Assembly: GCA_030447865.1 (NCBI GenBank)
Contig: JAUJOD010000001.1
Location: forward strand, 310,001-374,000
Direction: 5' to 3'
Length of the DNA stretch: 64,000 nt
Source of the DNA: Nocardioidaceae bacterium
Lineage (GTDB): Bacteria; Actinomycetota; Actinomycetes; Propionibacteriales; Nocardioidaceae
This document shows positions 2,235 through 40,551 of the stretch, in pieces. Every line of letters starts with the position of its first letter. Position 1 is the stretch's first letter. A program made the translations under genes and the position numbers. The notes below the pieces were generated by a model, which was not told the DNA's origin, made no database searches, and was given only the letters and a program-made list of their open reading frames with translations.

Positions 2235-4639
2235 CAGGTGCTACCTCCCTCGACGCGGACGACCGACCCCGCCCCCGCCCGCAGGTCGCGGTGCAGGTTG
2301 GCGCCGCCGGAGTTCGTCGGCGCCCAGACCACGTCGTCGGCGATGTCGCCGACCATCCAGGGCAGCGAGACAGTTGCTGCGTCGGTCCGGAGCACCACCC
2401 GGCTACCCGAAGTCAGCCCGAGCCGGTTCCTCGTCGCCGGTGAGATGACCGCGGCCGGGTTGCGAGCGGTCGCTTGCAGGTGCGGCTCGTTGTCGACAGC
2501 TCTGCTGTCATCGATCAGCAACCGCCAGGTGGACAGCACCGCCGAGCCGTCGGCTGGTGTGCGGCCCGCGCCGGGCTCCCGGGGTTGGAACTGCGGGCGG
2601 TCACCGTCCCAGGGCCCGAGCTCGATCATCTCCGCCCGGGCCTGCTCGCTCGTTCGGAAGCCGAGCGGGGAGTCGAGCTCCTCGGCGATCCCGGCCAGCA
2701 CGCGGACGTCGGTGAGGGCTGAGGAGTTGATCACCGCCGGGAACGGGCGTAACCGGCCTTCCCAGTTGACGAAGGCTCCCGCCTTCTCCTCAGTCGTCGC
2801 CACCGGCAAGATGACGTCGGCCCGCTCGGTTACGGCTGAGGTACGAACCTCGAGGCTGACCAGGAAGTCGACCCTGTCCAGCGCCTGCAGGGCGAGCGCG
2901 GGGTCGGCCAGGTCGTCCACTTCGACCCCGCCCACCACCAGCGCGCGCAGCTCACCTGCGGCGGCGCCCGTCAGCATCTGGTTGGTGTCGCGGCCCGGTG
3001 CCGATGGCAGCCTGTCGAGCCCCCATGCCGTTGCCACGTCGACCCGGGCGCCGGCGTCGGAGAGCGGCCGACCACCGGGCAGCAGGTTGGGCAGCAGCCC
3101 GGTCTCGAGCGACCCCCGCTCCCCGGCCCGGCGGGGCACCCACGCCAGCTTGGCGCCGGTGGACGCGGCCAGCGCCGCGACGGCGCTCAGCGTTCCCGGA
3201 GAGGTAGCCATCCGCTCCCCGACGAGGATGATGCCGCCTGCGTCGAGGGCTACCTCGCCGGAGTGCTGCACCGACGCGACAACGCTCGCCTCGGCTCCCG
3301 GCGTGGCGCGCAGCAGCGTGCCGCCCACCTTGTGCAGTCCGCGGGAGGTGTGGGACGCGATCGAGTAGACGCGAGTGCCGGAGGTCCGCGCGCCCTTGCG
3401 CAGCCGCAGGAACAGGATCGGCGACTCCTCCTCCGGCTCGAAACCGACGAGCAGTACGGCGCTTGCGTGCTCCAGCTCGTCGTACGACGCCGCCGGGCGC
3501 GCCGCGACGAAGGCGGCGAGGAAGTCGGCCTCCTCGCTCGAGAGTGGGCGGGCCCGGAAGTCGACGTTGTTGGTGCCGAGAACGGCGCGGGCGAACTTCC
3601 CGTACGCGTACGCGTCCTCGTTGGTCAGCCGGCCGCCTGCCAGCACGCCAACCGACCCTTGCGCAGCCGCGAGCCCCCGAGCGGCGACCGCGAACGCCTC
3701 CGGCCAGGAGGCGGGGCGCATGTCGCCGGTGTCGTCGTCACGGACCATCGGGCGGGTGAGCCGGTCGTCCAGCCGCGCTGACATGAACGCGAACCTGCCC
3801 TTGTCGCAGTTCCACTCCTCGTTGACATGCGGGTCATTACCAGCGAGCCGGCGGGTGACCTTGCCACGCCGATGGTCGATGCGCAGCGCACACCCAGAGG
3901 CGCAGTGCTCACACACCGACGGCGTCGACACCAGGTCGAAGGGCCGGGCCCGGAACCGGTAGGCGGCGGAGGTCAGCGCCCCGACTGGGCAGATCTGGAT
4001 GGTGTTGCCGGAGAAGTAGGACTCGAACGGCTCCTTCTCGTAGATGCCGACCTGCTGCATCGGTCCGCGCTCCAGCATCTCGATGAACGGGTCACCGGCG
4101 ATCTGCTCGCTGAAGCGGGTGCACCGCGCGCACAGCACGCAGCGCTCGCGGTCGAGCAGCACCTCCGCGGAGATGGCAATCGGCTTGACGAACGTTCGCT
4201 TCGTCTCGACGAACCGGCTCTCGCCTCGCCCGTTGGTGAGCGCCTGGTTCTGGAGCGGGCACTCACCTCCCTTGTCGCACACCGGGCAGTCGAGCGGATG
4301 GTTGATCAGCAGGAACTCGATGTTTCCCTGCTGCGCCTTGTCGGCCACCGGCGAGCTGTGCTGAGTGCGCACCACCATGCCCTGGGCCACCGTGAGCGTG
4401 CACGAGGCCTGCGGCTTCGGTTGCGGACGCCCGTTGCCCGCGTCGGGGATCTCCACCAGGCACTGCCGGCAGGCACCGACCGGCTCGAGCAGCGGGTGGT
4501 CACAGAACCGGGGGATCTGGATGCCGATCTGCTCTGCCGCGCGGATCACCAACGTGCCCTCAGGGACCGTCACCTCGACGTCGTCGATGGTCAAGGTCAC
4601 CGTCTTGACGATCTGGTTCGTCGCGACGTCCGCCGTCAT
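2234..4639 (-). CDS. nuoG: NADH-quinone oxidoreductase subunit G
   Basis: Large iron-sulfur subunit of the NADH-oxidising arm. Of 801 residues, the first 85 or so form a 2Fe-2S ferredoxin domain ([15 protein letters not shown]). Next come the NuoG-type cysteine/histidine cluster ligands ([14 protein letters not shown], then CVLCARC). A molybdopterin-oxidoreductase-like domain begins at [10 protein letters not shown] and retains the extra N7-type cluster Cys set. The ATG at 4639 overlaps the nuoF stop as ATGA and gives the usual short N-terminus; the frame continues upstream only through nuoF coding sequence. No active-site molybdenum cofactor function is expected in NuoG. Confidence 0.95.
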
Positions 4640-28571: not shown

Positions 28572-28784
28572 TGCCCCATTGTCGCCGAGGAGATCGACAT
28601 GGCGTGACCCTGGGGGGTTCCAGCCAACCGTCGACGCCGGAACACCGAGCGCAGGACTGTGGCATACTTGCCGTCGCCCCTATCACAGTTGTCTGCACGA
28701 GTTTACGCCGGCTGTAACACTGCGAGGGCAAGGACTGTCCAGCCGGTCTCCGGCGCGACAGCGAGGGAATACGTCGGAGGGACC
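28572..28784 (+). promoter_or_regulatory. Leader region of the lytic transglycosylase gene
   Basis: The 213-bp gap between divergent hemL and the transglycosylase gene contains a possible -10 CATACT at 28663-28668, which would leave a leader of about 110 bases. Inside it, CCGGCTG (28708-28714) can pair with CAGCCGG (28740-28746), enclosing a smaller GGACTGTCC stem. The signatures of the c-di-AMP (ydaO) riboswitch were not found. A GGAGG ribosome site precedes the ATG at 28785. Confidence 0.3.
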
Positions 28785-30551
28785 ATGGCGGCACGGCGCA
28801 CGACACGCAACGGTACCGCACGGTGGCAGAAGGTAACTGCCCTGTTGCCGATGGCGTTGCTTGCCGGTGCGTGGACCGCCAGCCTGGGCTCGGCGACCAC
28901 CGCTATCGCCGACCCAGGGCAAGACACGGGACTACCAGCGGTACCGACTACGGCCTTCAACTCACCGGCCAGCTACACCGATGCCCCCGCACTTGACCCG
29001 TCCATGTTCGACTCCAACTCGCACGGCGCCAACAGCTCAGCCGACGCCACGACCGAGTCGGTCAACGGCATCCCCACCGCAGCCATGTTGGCCTACCAGC
29101 AGGCCGAGTCGGTGCTCGACCAGGCCGATCCCAGCTGCCGCATCTCCTGGGCGCTGATCGCGGCGATCGGCCGGGTCGAGTCGGACCACGGGCGGCACGC
29201 CGGCAGCGTGCTGACCAGCAGCGGCAAGTCCCGGCCCGCCATCTATGGACCCGCGCTCGACGGCTCCAACGGCACAGCGCTGATCCGAGACACCGACAAC
29301 GGCGCTTACGACAACGACCGCCGCTACGACCGCGCCGTTGGTCCGATGCAGTTCATCCCCGGCACCTGGGCGATCGTCGGCGTCGACGGCGACGGCGACG
29401 GGATCCGCGACCCGCAAGACATCGACGACGCCGCACTCGCCGCCGGGGTGTACCTGTGCGCTGGCCCCGGGGACCTCTCCACCACTGCCGATCAGCGCAC
29501 CGCGGTGTTCAGCTACAACCACTCTCAGGAGTACGTCGACCTGGTGCTGGCGATCATGGCGGCCTATCTCGACGGCGACTACACCACTGTCGCTGACGGC
29601 CTGCCTATCACCAGCTATCTCCGGCCGAGCTCGGCGCTGACGCAGTCAACCGGGCCGCACTCCACTAACGACTCGGATAACTCCGGCCGGCCGGGCTCGT
29701 CCGGACACCAGCAGTCCGGAAAGAACACCGCCTCGGGCAAACAGCAGTCGCCGCGGCCTGGCGGCCAGCTACCGCAAGCGAGCCAGGCACCGCCAGGCAG
29801 CCAGCCACCGCCGCCGCCGTCGCCGTCCAACAACCCACAGCCCGCGACCGACGAGCCACCCCGACCCAACCGGCCGTCGCCGCCAACCGACTCGCCGGGG
29901 ACCAACGACCCGACTCCGCCGAAGAAGTCCCCGTCGCCCAACGACCCGACGCCGCCGAAGAAGTCCCCGTCGCCCAACGACCCAACGCCGCCGAAGAAGT
30001 CCCCGTCGCCCAACGACCCAACTCCGCCCAAGGAGTCTCCGTCGCCCAACGACCCGACGCCCAACGACCCGACGCCCAACGACCCGACGCCGCCGAAGGA
30101 GTCTCCGTCTCCCCCCAAGGAGTCGCCGCAGCCGCCCAAGGAGTCGCCGCAGCCGCCCAAGCCCAAGCCCAAGCCGGAGCCTAAGCCCGACCCCACGCCG
30201 CTTCCCCCGGTTCCGACAACGACGGTCACCCAACCGGTGCAGCCGATTGTCGACCCCGTCGCAAAGGCGACAGCGGCGTGCCAGGCTGCCTTCGCCGACG
30301 CTGACTACAACCCCACCGCGGGCGAGCTGGACCAGTGCGTGGCGGCCTACCAGGAGGGCGGCATGGCTGCGGTGGACGCGTTGATCGCGACACTGACCGC
30401 CGTACCGGGCGGGAGCACCCCCACGGTTCCGACGCCTTCGGTCCCGACGCTCCCTGCCCCGACGCCTTCGGTCCCGACGCTCTCTGCCCCGACTCTCTCC
30501 GGCCCGACTCTCTCCGGCCCGACCCCGTCGGTCGGGGTGCCAACGCCGTAG
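28785..30551 (+). CDS. Secreted lytic murein transglycosylase with proline-rich repeat tail
   Basis: A 588-aa exported cell-wall enzyme. An Arg-rich signal peptide with cleavage near TAIADPG precedes a MltB/SLT-like catalytic domain (residues about 90-270). The likely catalytic Glu is in WALIAAIGRVESDHG, and the domain contains GPMQFIPGTW and VFSYNHSQEY. After residue 290 the chain becomes Pro/Ser/Lys-rich, with repeats of NDPTPPKKSPSP. A small segment of about 45 residues with two cysteines follows (from ATAACQAAF to LDQCVAAYQEGG), then a Pro-Thr-rich end. The tail probably spans the cell wall. The substrate bond is inferred from the family. Confidence 0.82.
   Translation: MAARRTTRNGTARWQKVTALLPMALLAGAWTASLGSATTAIADPGQDTGLPAVPTTAFNSPASYTDAPALDPSMFDSNSHGANSSADATTESVNGIPTAAMLAYQQAESVLDQADPSCRISWALIAAIGRVESDHGRHAGSVLTSSGKSRPAIYGPALDGSNGTALIRDTDNGAYDNDRRYDRAVGPMQFIPGTWAIVGVDGDGDGIRDPQDIDDAALAAGVYLCAGPGDLSTTADQRTAVFSYNHSQEYVDLVLAIMAAYLDGDYTTVADGLPITSYLRPSSALTQSTGPHSTNDSDNSGRPGSSGHQQSGKNTASGKQQSPRPGGQLPQASQAPPGSQPPPPPSPSNNPQPATDEPPRPNRPSPPTDSPGTNDPTPPKKSPSPNDPTPPKKSPSPNDPTPPKKSPSPNDPTPPKESPSPNDPTPNDPTPNDPTPPKESPSPPKESPQPPKESPQPPKPKPKPEPKPDPTPLPPVPTTTVTQPVQPIVDPVAKATAACQAAFADADYNPTAGELDQCVAAYQEGGMAAVDALIATLTAVPGGSTPTVPTPSVPTLPAPTPSVPTLSAPTLSGPTLSGPTPSVGVPTP
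29904..30047 (+). repeat. 36-bp in-frame coding repeat, four copies
   Basis: Units starting at 29904, 29940, 29976 and 30012 each begin AACGACCC and encode NDPTPPKKSPSP (the last with KES). They are followed by three 15-bp units encoding NDPTP. This is a coding repeat in the transglycosylase tail, not an intergenic array. Confidence 0.9.
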
Positions 30552-33258: not shown

Positions 33259-34184
33259 GCCACCGGCTCCGACATGAGCTCAGCGGCGCCCTCGGCGAGC
33301 ATCTCCTGGGCCAGCCGGCAGCCGATGTCCGCCGCGGCGTCTGGTGGCCCGGTCGCCGAGAGGCGAATGGACCAGGACCCGTCCGGGGCTGCGACGACGG
33401 CTCGCAGCCAGATCTCTGGGCCGTCGTCCCCCTCGGCATGCTCGGCGAGCGCGCCGACCGGCGCTGTGCAGCCAGCCCCCAGCGATCGCAGCAGCGAGCG
33501 CTCTGCCGTGACCGCCGCTCTGCTGGGCGCGTAGTCCAATGCAGCCGCAACGTCGGCGGCAAGAGCGGGGTGACGGGCAGCCACCTCGACCGCCAAGGCG
33601 CCTTGCCCAGGAGCAGGAAGCATCTGCAGCGGGTCGAGTACCTCCGTGACCTCGGCCTGTCGTTGCAGCCGCGCCAACCCGGCCAGGGCCAGGACGACGG
33701 CGTCCAGCTGGCCGCTGCTGACCTTCGCGACCCGGGTGTCGACGTTGCCGCGCAGGTCGACGACGCTCAGGCCGAGTCCGAGCGCGTTGAGCTGAGCCGC
33801 TCGCCGTGGTGAGCCGGTGCCCACCGTCGAGCCGGCTGGGAGCTGGCCGAGGGTGAGGCCGTCGCGCGCAACCAGGGCATCGCGCGGGTCGTCTCGCTCA
33901 GGTACGGCGGCGAGCAGCACGCGGTCATCGGGGAGGGTCGGAAGGTCCTTCAAGGAGTGCACGACCACGTCGACAGCACCGTCGACAAGTGCCTGCCGCA
34001 CCGCTCCGACAAACACCCCCTGGCCGCCGATCTGGGCCAGCGGCGCCGTGGTCTTGTCGCCGTCGCTGATCACGTCGACCAGCTCCACGCCCGAACCGAG
34101 CGTGGCATGCAGGCGGCTCGCCACCAGGGCGCTCTGGGTCCGCGCCAACATGCTTGCGCGGGTACCGATCCGCAGTAGCGTCAT
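33255..34184 (-). CDS. hemC: Porphobilinogen deaminase (hydroxymethylbilane synthase)
   Basis: Polymerises four porphobilinogens into hydroxymethylbilane. The 309-aa protein opens LLRIGTRASMLARTQS and carries the substrate-site segment VVVHSLKDLPT. Cys 239 in LGAGCTAPVGALA should hold the dipyrromethane cofactor. ATGA overlaps join it to hemA upstream and cobA/hemD downstream. Confidence 0.95.
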   Translation of the reverse strand: MTLLRIGTRASMLARTQSALVASRLHATLGSGVELVDVISDGDKTTAPLAQIGGQGVFVGAVRQALVDGAVDVVVHSLKDLPTLPDDRVLLAAVPERDDPRDALVARDGLTLGQLPAGSTVGTGSPRRAAQLNALGLGLSVVDLRGNVDTRVAKVSSGQLDAVVLALAGLARLQRQAEVTEVLDPLQMLPAPGQGALAVEVAARHPALAADVAAALDYAPSRAAVTAERSLLRSLGAGCTAPVGALAEHAEGDDGPEIWLRAVVAAPDGSWSIRLSATGPPDAAADIGCRLAQEMLAEGAAELMSEPVA

Positions 34185-35482
34185 CGGCCGTCTCCAGCCC
34201 GGGTCACGGCGTCCACGGTGGCTGGGTCGAGCGCGAAGAGCTCCGCCAGCGCGTCGGCGTACGTCGATGTCGGCGCCCGGTCGGCGAGTTGCTTGACCCG
34301 GACGGTCGGCTCATGCAGCAGCTTGTCGGCGACCCGCCGCACGGCAGCGGCGATCTCGTCGCGCTGCCCTGGCGTCAGGTCGTCAAGGCGCCCCCACAGC
34401 CGGTCAAGCTCATCGGCAACCACACCAGTTGCCATACTGCGCAACGCCACCACTGTCGGTGCGACTCGGGCAGCAGCGCGGGCAGCCAGGAAGGCCGTGA
34501 CCTCCTCCGCGACGATCGCCCGCACCGAGTAAACGTCTTCTTGGGCCGGCCCGTTGTGTACCGACTCGGCGAGACCCCGCAAACTGATCAGCGCCACCCC
34601 CGGCAGGTCGGCTGCAGCCGGCTCGATGTCATGCGGAAGCGCAAGGTCGATCAGCGCCAACGGCGCTCCGGCGGTCCGGACGGTGAGCGCCTCGGCGACC
34701 GTCTCGGCGTCGATGACCGTGCCGGTGGCTCCGGTGCAGGAGATCACGATGTCTGCCTCGGCGATCTGGCCCACCAGATCCGTAACGGCAGCTGCTTGGC
34801 CGCCCACGCTGGCGGCCACCCGCTCGGCGCGCAGGCGAGTGCGCGAGACCACCACGATGCTGGCTGCGCCCGCTCGGCGTACTGACGCCGCCGACAACGC
34901 GGCGATCGAGCCGGCACCGACGATGACGACCCGCGCGCCCTCCACCGGTCCGATCACCTCAGCCGCGGCATGCAAGGCGACGGTAACCAGCGACTGACCT
35001 GCCTTGTCGATCGCTGTCTCGGCGTGGGCTCGCTTCCCGACCCGGAGAGCTTGTTGGAACAAGCTGTTCAGGGTTGGGCCGATCGTCTCACCCCGTTGGC
35101 CGCTGATGAGCGCATCCTTGAGCTGGCCGAGGATCTGCGCCTCGCCGACCACCATGGAGTCAAGGCCCGTCGAAACGGTGAAGATGTGCGCCACCGCGGC
35201 CTCGTCGTAGCGCACATACAGGGCAGGCAACACAGCGTCCGCGGCGGCGCCTGCCTTGTCGAGGAGCAGCTTGGTGAGGTCCTCGACCCCGCCGTGAAAG
35301 CGGTCGACGTCAGCATAGATCTCGACCCGGTTGCAGGTGGCGAGCACGAGAGACTCCGACACGTGCGGCGTATCCAGCGCTGCCTGCGCCAGCTTTGCCG
35401 CCGCTTCCTCGCCCAGCGCGAGCTGCTCGAGCAGCTCGACCGACGCGCTGCGGTGTGAGGCACCGACAATCAGGACGCTCAT
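34181..35482 (-). CDS. hemA: Glutamyl-tRNA reductase
   Basis: NADPH-dependent reduction of glutamyl-tRNA to glutamate-1-semialdehyde, the controlled first step of haem synthesis by the C5 route. The 433-aa product has the nucleophile Cys 50 in LVLATCNRVEIYADV, the GEAQILGQLKDA segment and the NADPH fold VVIVGAGSIAALSA. The ATG at 35482 is inside the rex stop (ATGA). The frame runs on upstream through rex, but that part is not hemA. Coupling to rex ties haem supply to redox state. Confidence 0.95.
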   Translation of the reverse strand: MSVLIVGASHRSASVELLEQLALGEEAAAKLAQAALDTPHVSESLVLATCNRVEIYADVDRFHGGVEDLTKLLLDKAGAAADAVLPALYVRYDEAAVAHIFTVSTGLDSMVVGEAQILGQLKDALISGQRGETIGPTLNSLFQQALRVGKRAHAETAIDKAGQSLVTVALHAAAEVIGPVEGARVVIVGAGSIAALSAASVRRAGAASIVVVSRTRLRAERVAASVGGQAAAVTDLVGQIAEADIVISCTGATGTVIDAETVAEALTVRTAGAPLALIDLALPHDIEPAAADLPGVALISLRGLAESVHNGPAQEDVYSVRAIVAEEVTAFLAARAAARVAPTVVALRSMATGVVADELDRLWGRLDDLTPGQRDEIAAAVRRVADKLLHEPTVRVKQLADRAPTSTYADALAELFALDPATVDAVTRAGDGR

Positions 35483-36186
35483 GCGAGGCTCGCTCGCAGT
35501 TCCGCCGCCCCGTTGGCCTTGCGTTGTTCGTGGTAGGCGAGGATCTGCAGCTCGATCGACAGGTCGACCTTGCGCACATCGACGTAGTCGGGGACCGTCA
35601 GCACGGCCGGAGCGAAGTTCAGCACGCTGCTCACGCCTGCCGCGACCAACCGGTCGCACACGTCCTGAGCGGCGCTGGCAGGGGTGGCGATCACTCCTAT
35701 CGAGACCGCCGCATTCGAGACGATGGCGTCGATGTCGTCGAACGAAGAGATCGTCAGATCCCCGACCTTCTCACCGACCCGGGCCGGGTCGTTGTCGACG
35801 AGCCCGGCAACCTGGAAGCCACGCGAGGCGAACCCCGCATAGTTGGCCAGGGCATGACCAAGGTTGCCGATGCCGACGATCACCACCGACCAGTCCTGGG
35901 TGAGCCCGATCTCCCGGGCTATCTGGTAGCGCAGGTAGTTCACGTCGTAGCCGACACCGCGGGTCCCGTAGGTACCGAGATACGACAGGTCCTTGCGCAG
36001 CTTCGCGGAGTTGACGCCGGCGGCGGTCGCGAGTTCCTCGCTGCTCGCCGTCACCACGTCCCGCTCGGACAACGCCGTCAGGGCTCGCAGGTAGACCGGG
36101 AGCCGTGCGATCGTCGCCTCAGGGATATCTCGTTCCAGCCGCTCGTCGCGAGCTCGGCCGCCCTTGCGGCTTGCTGCAGAGGTCAC
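35479..36186 (-). CDS. rex: Redox-sensing transcriptional repressor Rex
   Basis: Dimeric repressor that senses NADH/NAD+ and leaves DNA when NADH rises. The 235-aa protein has an N-terminal winged helix (ARLPVYLRALTALSERD; SSEELATAAGVNSAKLRKDL; YGTRGVGYDV) and a Rossmann domain (VVIVGIGNLGHALANY). The GTG at 36186 has GGGAG seven bases upstream and gives the expected length. It heads a rex-hemA-hemC-cobA/hemD-hemB operon and has its own candidate operator upstream, so it is probably autoregulated. Confidence 0.95.
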   Translation of the reverse strand: MTSAASRKGGRARDERLERDIPEATIARLPVYLRALTALSERDVVTASSEELATAAGVNSAKLRKDLSYLGTYGTRGVGYDVNYLRYQIAREIGLTQDWSVVIVGIGNLGHALANYAGFASRGFQVAGLVDNDPARVGEKVGDLTISSFDDIDAIVSNAAVSIGVIATPASAAQDVCDRLVAAGVSSVLNFAPAVLTVPDYVDVRKVDLSIELQILAYHEQRKANGAAELRASLA

Positions 36187-36257
36187 GGTGCTCCCTGAGC
36201 CGGCCGGCAGGAAGGGCTTCGGCCATCGAGGCGGTGCTGCAGCCGGTACTGACTGAC

Positions 36258-36286
36258 ACTGTAAGAGTTTGTGAACGGGAGAACAA
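36258..36286 (-). promoter_or_regulatory. Promoter of the rex-hem operon with overlapping Rex operator
   Basis: On the minus strand, -35 TTGTTC (36281-36286) and -10 TACAGT (36258-36263) are separated by exactly 17 bases. The -35 and spacer are covered by TTGTGAACGGGAGAACAA (36269-36286, plus-strand reading). This matches most of the Rex operator consensus TTGTGAACG-NN-TTCACAA: the left half fully, the right half in four of seven positions. Transcription would start near 36251, about 65 bases before the rex GTG. Confidence 0.6.
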
Positions 36287-36339
36287 AATCGCGGACGCCC
36301 CTCGGCGGAGGTCGTGATCGACGTCACCGAACGGCGGCG

Positions 36340-36576
36340 TCAGCGCCGCAGGGCAGCCCTGAGGCGGGCTGCGTCGACCCGCCAGAAGTCGTGCTGTGCC
36401 CCGTCGACAAATGTCACAGGAATCTGCTCGCCGTAGCGTTGCATCAGCTCCTCGTCGCCGCTGATGTCGATGTCATCGAAGCCGACACCGAACTCGCCGC
36501 AGACGGCGGCGACGACGTTTCGGGCGTCGTCGCACAGGTGGCACCCAGGCTTGGTGAGCAGGCGCACCCTGTTCAC
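36340..36576 (-). CDS. Glutaredoxin-like (DUF836-type) protein
   Basis: A 78-aa thioredoxin-fold protein with the redox motif KPGCHLCDDA at residues 9-18 and the cis-proline QIPVTFVDG. It resembles the small glutaredoxin-like family common in actinobacteria next to rex and hem genes. Its GTG overlaps the stop of the AMP-binding gene (GTGA), implying coupled translation. Partner and substrate unknown. Confidence 0.82.
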   Translation of the reverse strand: MNRVRLLTKPGCHLCDDARNVVAAVCGEFGVGFDDIDISGDEELMQRYGEQIPVTFVDGAQHDFWRVDAARLRAALRR

Positions 36577-37844
36577 GTCATGCCCTCACTGTCAACGAGG
36601 AAGAGGTCGCCGTCGGCGTCCACGACGCCGCCGTCTCCAGTGGCCAGCCACCCGTCAGGTCCTGGCGCCCCCTGGCCATCGGGCCAGTAGCCGCTGAACA
36701 GGTTCCTCCCTCGAACCCAGATCTCGCCGGGGGCGTCACCGCGCACATCGGAGCCGGTGTCGTCGACGATCCGCAGCTCCACACCGGGCACGGGTCGTCC
36801 CACCGAGCCCGGCTTGCGTTCGGGTGATTCAAGCGTCGAGGTGACAACCGGTCCGGCTTCGGCGACCCCGTACCCCTGGTGCACCGTCACCCCGGTGCGT
36901 TGCTCGAACTCGCGCACCACGTCCACGGCAAGCCACGCCGCACCAACCAGCAGCGTCCGGACCGGCGCAAGTTTCGCTGCCACGTCGTCGCGCCGAGCCC
37001 ACGCGGCCACCACCGGCGGAGCGACGGGCACGCAGGTGACGCCCTCTGTCGACACCAGCTGCGCCATCTCTTCGGGGTCGAACCACTTCCCCAGCACCAG
37101 CGTCGACCCCTGCAACAGCACCTGACCGAGGACTGCGTTCAGCCCGTAGCTGTGAGACAGCGGAACCGCCCCCAGCACGATGTCGTCGGGTCGCATCGGG
37201 GCCGGGCGGATTCGTGACGCCTGGTCGATGTTCGCGAGCAGGGCACGGTGGCTGAGCATGGCGGCCCGTGGGCGGCCATGCGTGCCGCAGCTGTACAGCA
37301 ACAGCCCCACCGCCTCGGCGTCTCGAGGCGACATGACTTCGGCGCCTACCGCGGTGACGTCGCCGTACCCGAGTTCACCGGTCTGCACCGGTGCGTCCAC
37401 CACGATCAGCGTTGGGGGCCAGGTCCGGGCCAATCTGTCGCCACCGGAGCCGACAGGTGCTTCGGTGCGGCAGCTCGCTGCTTCCCGAACCACCTCGACA
37501 GACGCAGCGTCGGCAAAACACCACCGCGAGGCGCTGTCGGCCAGCACCCGAGCGACCGCGCCGGGCGTCGAAGTTGGGTGAATCGGTACGGCGACCCGGC
37601 CGCCGCGCAGCGCACCGAGGTAACTGGCCACGAACTCGATCCGGTTGACCATGGAGATCGCCACCCGGTCCCCGGCCACCGCGCCCAGTTCGGACAACCC
37701 ACGCGCCAGCTCGTCGACTCTGCCGTCGAGCTGTGACCACGTCACGCGCCGGTCCCCGTCGATCAGCGCGGTTCGTGCCCCGTTGCGAACGGCTTGACGG
37801 CGCAGTAGCTCGGCGACATTCGTGGCCGCGAGGACGACCTTCAT
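36573..37844 (-). CDS. AMP-binding (adenylate-forming) family protein, truncated and degenerate
   Basis: A 423-aa relative of acyl-CoA synthetases. The N-terminal domain is clear (RVTWSQLDGRVDELARGL; VPLSHSYGLNAVLG; QGYGVAEAGPVV; WLATGDGGVVDADGDLFLVD). The ATP loop reads LYSCGTHGRPRAAML where active enzymes normally have SGTTGRPKG, so the conserved lysine is Arg. The chain stops just after FLVDSEGMT, before the hinge motif and the roughly 100-residue C-terminal domain with the catalytic lysine. The stop overlaps the glutaredoxin start, so the truncation looks stable. Probably not an ordinary acyl-CoA ligase; it could be a binding or regulatory protein or a decaying gene. Confidence 0.75.
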   Translation of the reverse strand: MKVVLAATNVAELLRRQAVRNGARTALIDGDRRVTWSQLDGRVDELARGLSELGAVAGDRVAISMVNRIEFVASYLGALRGGRVAVPIHPTSTPGAVARVLADSASRWCFADAASVEVVREAASCRTEAPVGSGGDRLARTWPPTLIVVDAPVQTGELGYGDVTAVGAEVMSPRDAEAVGLLLYSCGTHGRPRAAMLSHRALLANIDQASRIRPAPMRPDDIVLGAVPLSHSYGLNAVLGQVLLQGSTLVLGKWFDPEEMAQLVSTEGVTCVPVAPPVVAAWARRDDVAAKLAPVRTLLVGAAWLAVDVVREFEQRTGVTVHQGYGVAEAGPVVTSTLESPERKPGSVGRPVPGVELRIVDDTGSDVRGDAPGEIWVRGRNLFSGYWPDGQGAPGPDGWLATGDGGVVDADGDLFLVDSEGMT

Positions 37845-38014
37845 CTCTCGGAGTCTGACACACCACCGGTCGCCCAGAGGGGGGTCCGGCGGGGCTGCAC
37901 TGGCCTGCCGAGGGGAGCAAGGGGGCGGGTGTGACGTTGGGACGAACAGGTGCCGCCACTCCGCCGAACTGGGGCTCAGGCTACCGAGACGGCCGCGGGA
38001 GCGTTGCCGATGAG

Positions 38015-38043
38015 TTTGCTTCGAGAGGGCCGCGGCGTACCAT
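38015..38043 (+). promoter_or_regulatory. Candidate promoter of the sigma-factor gene
   Basis: TTTGCT (38015-38020) and TACCAT (38038-38043) with a 17-base spacer precede the sigma gene by about 45 bases. Both boxes match only partly, and BldN-type genes elsewhere use developmental regulators, so this is tentative. The rest of the 243-bp gap (37845-38087) shows nothing else I can name. Confidence 0.33.
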
Positions 38044-38087
38044 CAGGGCACCGGGACCGGCAGCTTTCCGCCGGAGAGGGAGTTGTC

Positions 38088-38792
38088 ATGTCGGGTGTCA
38101 ACAGCACACCGATGGCTGGACTAGACGCCTTGCGGTGCGCCGTTGCGGCTGTCTTGACCGGGCGACCCCTGCTTGCCACCACGGCGTCGACCAGTACTGG
38201 ACCAGCGCCGATGGGCTCACCTCCGCCCGAGGCCGGTGACGTCGAGGTAACCAGGATCACCGCGCTCGTCGACCTGGCCCGGCGAGGTGACGCCGAGGCC
38301 TTCGGCGCCCTGTACGACCATTACCACCCGCCGGTCTACCGCTTCGTCTACTACCGGGTCGCCAGCCAGGCGTTGGCCGAGGATCTGGTCAGCGAAACGT
38401 TCTTCCGAGCGCTGCGGTCGATGGCTAGCTTCCAGTGGCAGGGCAAGGACTTTGGCGCCTGGCTGATGACGATCGCGCGGAACCTGGTCGCCGACCATTA
38501 CAAATCGGGCCGCACCCGGCTGGAAACCAGCACCGACGACTTCGCCGGCCATGAAGGCGTCACCGAAGGTCCCGAAGACGAGGTGATGGCAGATCTGACC
38601 AACGACTTGTTGCGTACGGCGCTGACCCGGCTGCCCGCAGAACAGCAAGAGTGCCTGGTCATGCGGTTTCTCAACGGGAGCTCCATCGCCGAGACCGCGC
38701 AGGCGTTGGGTCGATCGGAAGGCGCCGTCAAGCAGCTGCAGCTCCGAGCCGTCCGCAACCTCGCCAAGTTGCTGCCCGAGGGACTGCGATGA
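38088..38792 (+). CDS. ECF-type RNA polymerase sigma factor, BldN-like
   Basis: A 234-aa sigma factor. After a roughly 60-residue N-terminal extension, region 2 begins at FGALYDHYHPPVYRFVYYR and includes AEDLVSETFFRALR and FGAWLMTIARNLVADHYKS. Region 4 is LPAEQQECLVMRFLNGSS followed by an HTH (AETAQALGRSEGAVKQLQ). These signatures and the extension resemble Streptomyces sigma-BldN, made with an N-terminal pro-region. The neighbour downstream is a DUF5667 protein, the family of the BldN anti-sigma RsbN. The ATG at 38088 is preceded by GGAGAGGGAG. A role in development or envelope change is inferred. Confidence 0.85.
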   Translation: MSGVNSTPMAGLDALRCAVAAVLTGRPLLATTASTSTGPAPMGSPPPEAGDVEVTRITALVDLARRGDAEAFGALYDHYHPPVYRFVYYRVASQALAEDLVSETFFRALRSMASFQWQGKDFGAWLMTIARNLVADHYKSGRTRLETSTDDFAGHEGVTEGPEDEVMADLTNDLLRTALTRLPAEQQECLVMRFLNGSSIAETAQALGRSEGAVKQLQLRAVRNLAKLLPEGLR

Positions 38793-38913
38793 TGCGCCAT
38801 CGCCACAGCCGGCGTCAGCCCGTAACTTTGTGCTCTTCTGCGTCGTTTCGCACTATGACAAGCGACAGCTACCCGTTCGGTCTCGAGCGGTTCCCAGCGA
38901 AAAGGCCAGCCAA

Positions 38914-40551
38914 ATGATGCCCATGGCGTCTGCGCGCAAGCGCGCAGAGGAGTTCGCGGCGGCCGCCGATGGCCGACCGGGCTCGATCGCCGTCCTGGAC
39001 CCCGAAACCCGCGCCTTCGTGGAGCTTGTCCAGCAGCTGAGGAGCGTCGACACCCCAACGCCCGATCCGCGCTTCACGGCCGACCTCAGGTCGCGGCTGG
39101 TTGATGCTGCTCGCACAGAACTCCTTGCACCGCCGGTCGAGCGTGGCTTCAGCGACCGCCGCAGTCGCCGACCGGCGCCACACCGTCGACGTGCCATGTC
39201 GGTCGCCGCCTCAGCGTGCATCGTTGCGGGCAGTGGCATGGGGGTCGCGGCCGCGAGTCAGTCCGCGCTGCCTGGCGACGCCCTCTACCCGGTTAAGCGG
39301 GGGATCGAGCGGGTCGAGTTGACCGTCGCTGGGTCAGCTGCCGAGCGAGGTCAGGAATACATCGAGTTTGCCGACAACCGGCTCACCGAGATCCAGGGCC
39401 TGGCGCTGACCCGCCCCGACGATCCGGCAACCCCTGCCCTGATCGCCCAGACGCTCGGTGACTTCACCACTCAGGCCGAAGACGGCGCCGTTTACCTGAT
39501 CCGTGCCTACGAGCGCGATTCCAGTGAGCAGAGCATCGTCGACCTGAGGGAGTTCACGGACGAATCCGCGGCCAAGCTCGAGGAGCTGGGTGAGACGGTC
39601 CCCGCGGACGTTCGCGATGAGTTGATGGCTGCAGCTGAGACGCTCACGACAATCGACGAGGCGGCTCGTGCGGCGTGTCCTGACTGCAGCACATTGACGC
39701 CCCTGACCCTGTCAGCGGATTTCACGGTGCTGGTGCCCGGCACCGAAGACACCTCCAACAACGCCGCGGGCGCTCCCGCGCTCCCGGCACTACCGGCGGA
39801 CCCGTCCCTTCCAGCAAACCCGCCTCAACCGGCCGACCCGTCCCAACCGGCCGACCCGTCCCAACCAGCGAACCCGTCTTTGCCGGCGCTCCCATCACTG
39901 TCGGCCTTCCCATCACTACCGGCGAATCCGGCCCAACCGACGAACCTGGCGCTGCCGGCGAACCCGTCCCTACCGGCGAACCCGTCCCTACCAGCGAACC
40001 CGTCCCTACCAGCGAACCCGTCCCTACCAGCGAACCCGTCACTACCAGCGAACCCGTCACTACCAGCGAACCCGTCCCTACCAGCGAACCCGTCACTACC
40101 AGCGAACCCGTCACTACCGGCGGATCGGAGCACACCAGGGCTCAAGCCGCCGTTGGCTCTGCCCCCCGGCGGATCATCCGCTGACCCGAAGCAGCAACAG
40201 CCGCCAGTGCAGCAAGCGTTGCCGACTGCCAACGGCGTCGGTCCCATTCAGGCGCCTGCGCCGCCGCCGGCCCTGCAGCCCCCACCGATCAACCCCCCAC
40301 CCGTGCAACAGCCGACGGCGACGGCGCAGGCACCGACTACCGAGTTCACCGTTCCGACGGTGACCGGCGTTCCGTCAACGCCGATCGTCAGCGACCCGTC
40401 AGGCGTCCCGCTGCCGACGGTCGGCTTGGTTGACCCATCCAACGCAGTGCCGATAATCGACCCGGTGAATCCGCCCCCTGCACCGGATCCACTCGATCCA
40501 CCCGACGTACCTAGTGCACCCACGGCGCTCACACCGCCGCAGCTGCCGTAG
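38914..40551 (+). CDS. DUF5667 membrane protein, probable anti-sigma factor (RsbN-like), with long repeat tail
   Basis: A 545-aa single-pass membrane protein. Residues 1-90 form a polar cytoplasmic domain (MMPMASARKRAEEFAAAADG), then a membrane segment (VAASACIVAGSGMGVAAAS). The DUF5667 outer domain follows (ALPGDALYPVKRGIERVEL). After residue 280 the chain is almost entirely Pro, Ala, Leu, Ser and Asn, including nine tandem SLPANP-type hexapeptides. Position straight after a BldN-like sigma gene supports an RsbN-like anti-sigma role. The ATG at 38914 is chosen; an upstream GTG at 38830 is less likely. Confidence 0.75.
   Translation: MMPMASARKRAEEFAAAADGRPGSIAVLDPETRAFVELVQQLRSVDTPTPDPRFTADLRSRLVDAARTELLAPPVERGFSDRRSRRPAPHRRRAMSVAASACIVAGSGMGVAAASQSALPGDALYPVKRGIERVELTVAGSAAERGQEYIEFADNRLTEIQGLALTRPDDPATPALIAQTLGDFTTQAEDGAVYLIRAYERDSSEQSIVDLREFTDESAAKLEELGETVPADVRDELMAAAETLTTIDEAARAACPDCSTLTPLTLSADFTVLVPGTEDTSNNAAGAPALPALPADPSLPANPPQPADPSQPADPSQPANPSLPALPSLSAFPSLPANPAQPTNLALPANPSLPANPSLPANPSLPANPSLPANPSLPANPSLPANPSLPANPSLPANPSLPADRSTPGLKPPLALPPGGSSADPKQQQPPVQQALPTANGVGPIQAPAPPPALQPPPINPPPVQQPTATAQAPTTEFTVPTVTGVPSTPIVSDPSGVPLPTVGLVDPSNAVPIIDPVNPPPAPDPLDPPDVPSAPTALTPPQLP
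39952..40113 (+). repeat. 18-bp in-frame coding repeat, nine copies
   Basis: Nine units of 18 bp (consensus CTACCAGCGAACCCGTCC, starting at 39952) encode LPANPS hexapeptides in the anti-sigma candidate. Neighbouring copies differ at one or two positions, and degenerate copies flank the array from about 39790. Such near-identity suggests recent expansion by slippage. Confidence 0.93.

Follow-up and report, generated by a model that had tools for sequence, protein, structure and literature searches.

The stretch of 64,000 nucleotides analysed here (the window), which belongs to a Nocardioidaceae genome that is 97.8% complete (G000), carries a gene, acs (36573..37844, reverse strand), whose 423-residue product is the N-terminal, i.e., AMP-binding, domain of an ANL ligase and ends at the hinge. 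Behind this truncation is an internal in-frame deletion confined to one genus; it is both young and local, and the acs-grx-rex-hem neighbourhood around it is old. As for the remnant, the reading that we prefer, with a probability of about one half, is that it is non-catalytic and still selected, most likely for binding and perhaps also for coupled translation of grx, the glutaredoxin gene that it overlaps.

In a Pfam search the remnant covered the whole PF00501 profile (1-384 of 384; 274.2 bits); no other family was matched, and the C-terminal domain PF13193 was not found, which agrees with a preliminary description of the locus in which the whole C-terminal domain was reported as lost. Its best NCBIfam score was 226.4, below the cut-off of 476. 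The TGA stop of acs shares four nucleotides (GTGA) with the GTG start of grx (36340..36576, reverse strand), which encodes a glutaredoxin-like protein of 78 residues (PF05768/DUF836; 73 bits against a cut-off of 26) with CHLC as its CxxC motif. This protein is like other DUF836/Glrx-like glutaredoxins in family and motif, the one difference being the truncated ligase gene that overlaps its own. Downstream of grx lie the rex ORF (35479..36327, reverse strand; NF003992, 371.9 bits, cut-off 226), whose start is placed by homology near 36162, and the hemA ORF (34181..35659, reverse strand). Upstream of acs, a divergent ECF sigma factor ORF (37950..38792, forward strand) has TIGR02952, the BldN family, as its top NCBIfam match, at 180.1 bits and therefore under the cut-off of 206.45. 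The intact frame, the stop overlapping the glutaredoxin start and the position between rex-hem and a sigma gene are thus all as first described.

The spread of the truncation was read from a survey of 245 genomes of the family with a full-length query, in which matches with a best E of at most 1e-115, a cut of our own, were taken as ortholog-grade (genomes sorted 150 + 61 + 34). Such a match was present in 211 genomes and reached the C-terminal domain in 209 of them, the lowest end being 513 of 533 (G003) and the next 523; the sole two whose match stops at the hinge are G000 (1-422) and G001 (1-423). The 34 genomes counted as being without an ortholog include G159 and G212 (E about 1e-87 to 1e-90), G017 (contig edge) and two of the three members of the nearby genus g10, namely G010 (82% complete), where the absence was seen at the locus, and G065 (76% complete), where it comes from the survey alone; the gene is therefore dispensable. 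Within the order, each of 28 orthologous loci (L011-L038) has 100-128 residues past the matched stretch, and the full-length orthologs, about 44-59% identical to the remnant, keep the same place and order. The two closest matches that bear a name are Nocardioidaceae bins. The preliminary description had held that full-length, active ligases in relatives would make this copy a local truncation, and full-length ligases are what the survey returned: only one genus has the truncation, and the same truncated protein followed by grx recurred in G001 only.

G001 is a second species and the only congener searched, so that the truncated genus is represented by two genomes. Its protein is 92% identical to that of G000 (93% at the DNA level in acs) and ends at the same place. 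At the junction (36573..36593, reverse strand) the hinge residue D418 of G000 is followed by SEGMT and the stop, the C-terminal end reading ...LFLVDSEGMT, and in G001 the end reads ...LFLVEGLT, i.e., V and then EGLT; full-length relatives have the C-terminal domain and finish with tails such as MGLA or LGLT. Compared with close relatives about 100-115 codons are missing, most of the C-terminal domain, and since the gene still has its tail, its stop and its overlap with grx, an internal in-frame deletion is the simplest reading. The deletion was probably made once, in the ancestor of the genus, because the junction is common to both species within two codons, because at seven conserved columns both depart in common from the residue of the family, and because they form one clade. 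In a tree of 30 rows this clade lies inside the full-length orthologs (support 100/100, one change), and it groups with G032 and G003 at a moderate support of 86/88. An assembly or sequencing artefact, for which one may point out that G001 is a metagenome bin, is ruled out for practical purposes, as two distinct species have the same junction together with small in-frame differences.

The catalytic motifs were compared with those of 133 full-length orthologs (73 besides G000 and G001, and 60 from the survey lists, with 22 coming from the lower-scoring list) and of 40 control paralogs. Left out were L053, a duplicate of G049, and L067 and L108, both at contig ends; nine stretches gave no usable ortholog, the eight expected and G277, where the match covered no more than parts of the frame. 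The controls came from the lower-scoring list and were picked for matching both domains and having no internal stops, and they therefore lean towards intact enzymes. Like the ANL acyl/aryl-CoA ligases (4-coumarate-CoA ligase, FadD13, PRK06187-type long-chain acyl-CoA ligases), the remnant has a complete PF00501, the A4 His, the A5 Tyr-Gly..Glu and the A7 Thr-Gly-Asp; unlike them, it is without A8, the C-terminal domain and the A10 lysine, and its A3 motif is altered. Every one of the 133 full-length orthologs, like both remnants, has the A4 His, the A5 Tyr and Glu and the A7 Asp.

The P-loop lysine, which the preliminary description had listed as lost, is indeed replaced by R193, within the A3 stretch LYSCGTHGRPRAAMLSH (residues 183-199; 37248..37298, reverse strand), and the controls have Lys at this position in 40/40 cases. 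The replacement is not specific to the remnant, as the full-length orthologs have Arg in 116 of 133, Lys in 13 and another or a missing residue in 4. Since Arg is what most of the family has here, we reject the replacement as evidence of decay. The changes local to the remnant are instead the absent C-terminal domain, the A3 motif SCGTHG and, in A5 (GYGVAEA, residues 324-330; 36855..36875, reverse strand), T328A next to a retained Glu. This last change need not be a loss, since the A5 consensus tabulated in PMC8388817 allows either Ala or Thr at the position preceding the Glu. The A3 motif reads YSCGTHGRPRAAM in the window and YPCGTHG-PRAAM in G001, where PCGTHG comes with one residue missing; its SC and H changes, unlike the Arg, are uncommon among family members. 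The Ser of the window and the Pro of G001 are taken to occupy the presumed position of Thr161 of 4-chlorobenzoate-CoA ligase, an enzyme for which PMC8388817 lists a 4-fold fall on mutation of the P-loop lysine, a 2,000-fold fall for Thr161 and inactivity for Pro168. The A3 P-loop is thus eroded in the remnant, which counts against a retained function. Other A3 columns are also more variable in the orthologs than in the controls (e.g., Gly in 116/133 versus 39/40), although part of this extra variation may be misalignment.

What the deletion removed is central to the ANL mechanism as described in the literature: adenylation takes place with the A10 lysine, named the key catalytic residue (PMC8388817), and is followed by a rotation of the C-terminal domain of about 140 degrees (PMC8388817, PMC6122825), this domain turning about the hinge during both catalysis and ligand binding (PMC8388817, PMC10590383). 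In the remnant the A10 lysine is absent, and the column of the A8 hinge arginine is a gap in G000 and Gly in G001. With the lysine and the rotating domain both gone, parts of the known mechanism are missing, and judging from the published mutants of other ANL enzymes the remnant would hardly be able to adenylate or to thioesterify. On these grounds the sequence gives good support to the suggestion first made of a non-catalytic protein, as A8 and the A10 lysine are absent and the P-loop is altered, and the purifying selection described below fits a remaining role.

Loss of the A10 lysine is wider than the truncated genus. The full-length orthologs have Lys in 117 of 133, and the 16 exceptions (Arg in 6, Glu in 6, Ala, Val, Asn and one deletion) compare with none among the 40 paralogs (Fisher p = 0.025, with rows that are non-independent). 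Five of the six Glu fall in one genus, and if the truncation is counted in, outright loss of A10 takes six changes by parsimony on a quick tree. The otherwise open full-length genes of G021, G069, G077, G084, G090, G032, G140, G039, G045 and G003 carry Glu, Ala, Asn, Val or a deletion at A10. As G032 has Glu and G003 has lost the A10 stretch, the clade that they form with the truncated genus has no member read with an intact A10. The genus g21 has Glu in 5/5 genomes read (6 in the survey), and its dN/dS is 0.13-0.40 for the N-terminal and 0.10-0.33 for the C-terminal domain. This constraint, together with the A10 losses, suggests that in several lineages the protein may have a role with no need for adenylation.

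Because both species of the truncated genus carry the deletion and the truncation is most simply ancestral, their comparison measures dN/dS after the truncation. For the remnant it gave dN 0.041, dS 0.158 and dN/dS 0.26 (95% bootstrap 0.15-0.41; about 0.20 with YN00), with 12, 22 and 50 differences at the first, second and third codon positions and three indels (10, 1 and 2 codons), all in frame. The values for hemB, hemC, hemA, rex, grx and sigma in the same pair are 0.06-0.17. Two equally shallow full-length pairs gave 0.10 and 0.05, so that the remnant is 2.5-5 times higher, and all 17 full-length pairs span 0.05-0.34, a range within which the remnant falls. In this one species pair, then, there is real constraint, though it may be weaker than usual. 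The acs/hemA ratio of dN/dS, about 1.6 in the truncated pair, was dropped as a test of relaxation because the spread in full-length pairs with a hemA value (about 0.5-5.8) is not decisive, and the changes between the two remnants, 3 at 72 conserved and 31 at 340 variable columns, are too weak a signal (p = 0.24) to say that they keep clear of the columns conserved in the family.

These values bear on a reading that we regard as a serious possibility even though we lean against it, namely that the remnant is a relic in slow decay, a useless protein whose sole service is to deliver ribosomes for reinitiation at the overlapping grx start. The survival of the four-nucleotide overlap through the deletion, the closeness of acs and grx in most relatives measured, the eroded A3, the excess of dN/dS over the two shallow pairs and the 34 genomes without an ortholog-grade match, those of g10 among them, all agree with it. 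Coupling would select against stops and frameshifts and not against most missense changes, yet the dN/dS interval excludes 1; moreover, the remnant still has the A4 His, A5 Glu and A7 Asp, which full-length orthologs likewise keep where their A10 lysine is lost or changed, and the stem branch leading to the truncated pair, at 0.41, lies among the lengths of the terminal branches of its full-length sisters (0.27-0.60). Translational coupling to grx therefore explains the open frame and not the low missense rate, and purifying selection, in this one species pair, points most probably to a non-catalytic role of the protein itself.

Two further proteins of the window may be recorded here. An anti-sigma-like gene (DUF5667; 38911-39830) with many PSLPANPS repeats has a dN/dS of 1.41 (0.98-2.29) between G000 and G001, far above the other genes compared in this pair. 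The product of 28659-30551 bears a long Pro-rich repeat tail, PTPPKKSPSPND, and is presumably a secreted lytic transglycosylase.

The neighbourhood in which the deletion took place is old. The ligase gene adjoins grx in 26 of the 28 loci of the order, the exceptions being a contig end and G049, where grx is about 9.7 kb away; at class level, 18 of 20 loci picked from the better matches have the two genes in tandem, with one locus that lacks a glutaredoxin match and one contig end. The ancestral protein would have been an acyl/aryl-CoA-ligase-like ANL enzyme, long encoded directly upstream of grx in actinobacteria, and the actinobacterial full-length orthologs in this neighbourhood differ from the remnant in having the C-terminal domain. 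Glutaredoxin was found in 56 of 58 relatives. In the family genomes inspected that are devoid of the ligase, grx stands beside hemA in 6/6 and rex was found in 5/6, so that grx does not appear to depend on the ligase. In L028 (G018) a frameshift or a sequencing error breaks the glutaredoxin, at about 2961-3367, across two frames.

Between grx and rex lies an element, TTGTGAACGGGAGAACAAA (36269..36287, unstranded), conserved in relatives: the form TTGTGAAC...ACAAA occurs in 39 of the 42 loci tested. In its first half it is identical to the half-site of the Rex operator given in PMC5355995, and in its second half it differs; the full Rex-operator pattern had no match in the window with up to three mismatches allowed. 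This conserved element suggests that rex-hem may have its own promoter and that acs-grx may be a separate unit.

The age of the adjacency is the part that stood of the earlier proposal that the remnant has a redox partner; the persistence of glutaredoxin in genomes lacking the ligase weakens the rest. The same evidence bears on the proposal of a dedicated sensor, in which binding of a nucleotide or acyl ligand by the domain would be signalled to the glutaredoxin, and which we hold to be unlikely. The old tandem and the retained A4, A5 and A7 residues accord with it, as does the isolated luciferase N-terminal domain, which still binds substrates (PMC4757408). Speaking against it are the ligase-less genomes that keep grx, the distance between the two genes in G049, and the loss of domain rotation: the rotating C-terminal domain is the very part removed, and a sensor would need another output. 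No fusion of the two proteins was noticed.

The luciferase domain also offers the closest comparison for what the remnant itself may do, as in isolation it binds the adenylate as well, and its reaction is very slow (PMC4757408). One may thus fairly expect the remnant to bind without useful turnover. On our preferred reading, then, the deletion in the ancestor of the genus would have taken the hinge and the C-terminal domain and left a native-like end, the stop and the grx overlap; the remnant would bind an acid and/or a nucleotide without turnover, as the remaining A4 His, A5 Glu and A7 Asp lead us to infer, and its translation may also feed the overlapping grx start. Very unlikely, in our view, is that the N-terminal domain alone is still a slow enzyme or is partnered by a C-terminal domain in trans. 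PMC4757408 treats the firefly luciferase domain as able to carry out both steps by itself, though far more slowly, which would favour such activity, but the altered P-loop argues against a slow enzyme. The seven PF13193 matches in G000 include no orphan C-terminal domain, and its supply from elsewhere in the genome is rejected; six of the seven adjoin an AMP-binding match whose open frame is of equal length. The seventh (G000:C8:7775-8490, reverse strand) has an AMP-binding fragment alongside in another frame (215 and 283 residues), and the pair is perhaps a broken ligase.

Chains of N-domain length are present in the PDB, for FadD13 (3t5b, 5zrn) and for firefly luciferase (5gyz), with 396, 398 and 435 residues, and the remnant matched them up to the same hinge. 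From their length we take these to be laboratory constructs, whereas the remnant is natural. A structure prediction from three sequences reached a pLDDT of 40 and a pTM of 0.29 and was not used. Neither the gene pair nor a natural ANL protein without its C-terminal domain was found in the open-access literature searched (titles and starts of abstracts).

A broader idea, which we put forward tentatively and with more doubt than belief, is that the ligase found in actinobacteria beside glutaredoxin, rex and the heme genes is on its way to becoming a binding protein: one lineage after another loses the A10 lysine and one genus the C-terminal domain, while the pocket stays selected. The protein of the window would then be an ANL pseudoenzyme in a natural and minimal form, which might report how much acyl or adenylate is present next to a redox module. 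If the remnant is a relic, it would tell us that an intact frame and a tidy operon overlap are no proof of a working enzyme. If it is functional, it would be a natural experiment on the ANL N-terminal domain without the catalytic half, and the family, with its repeated loss of A10 and its unchanged pocket, would offer a chance to catch enzymes in the course of turning into binders.
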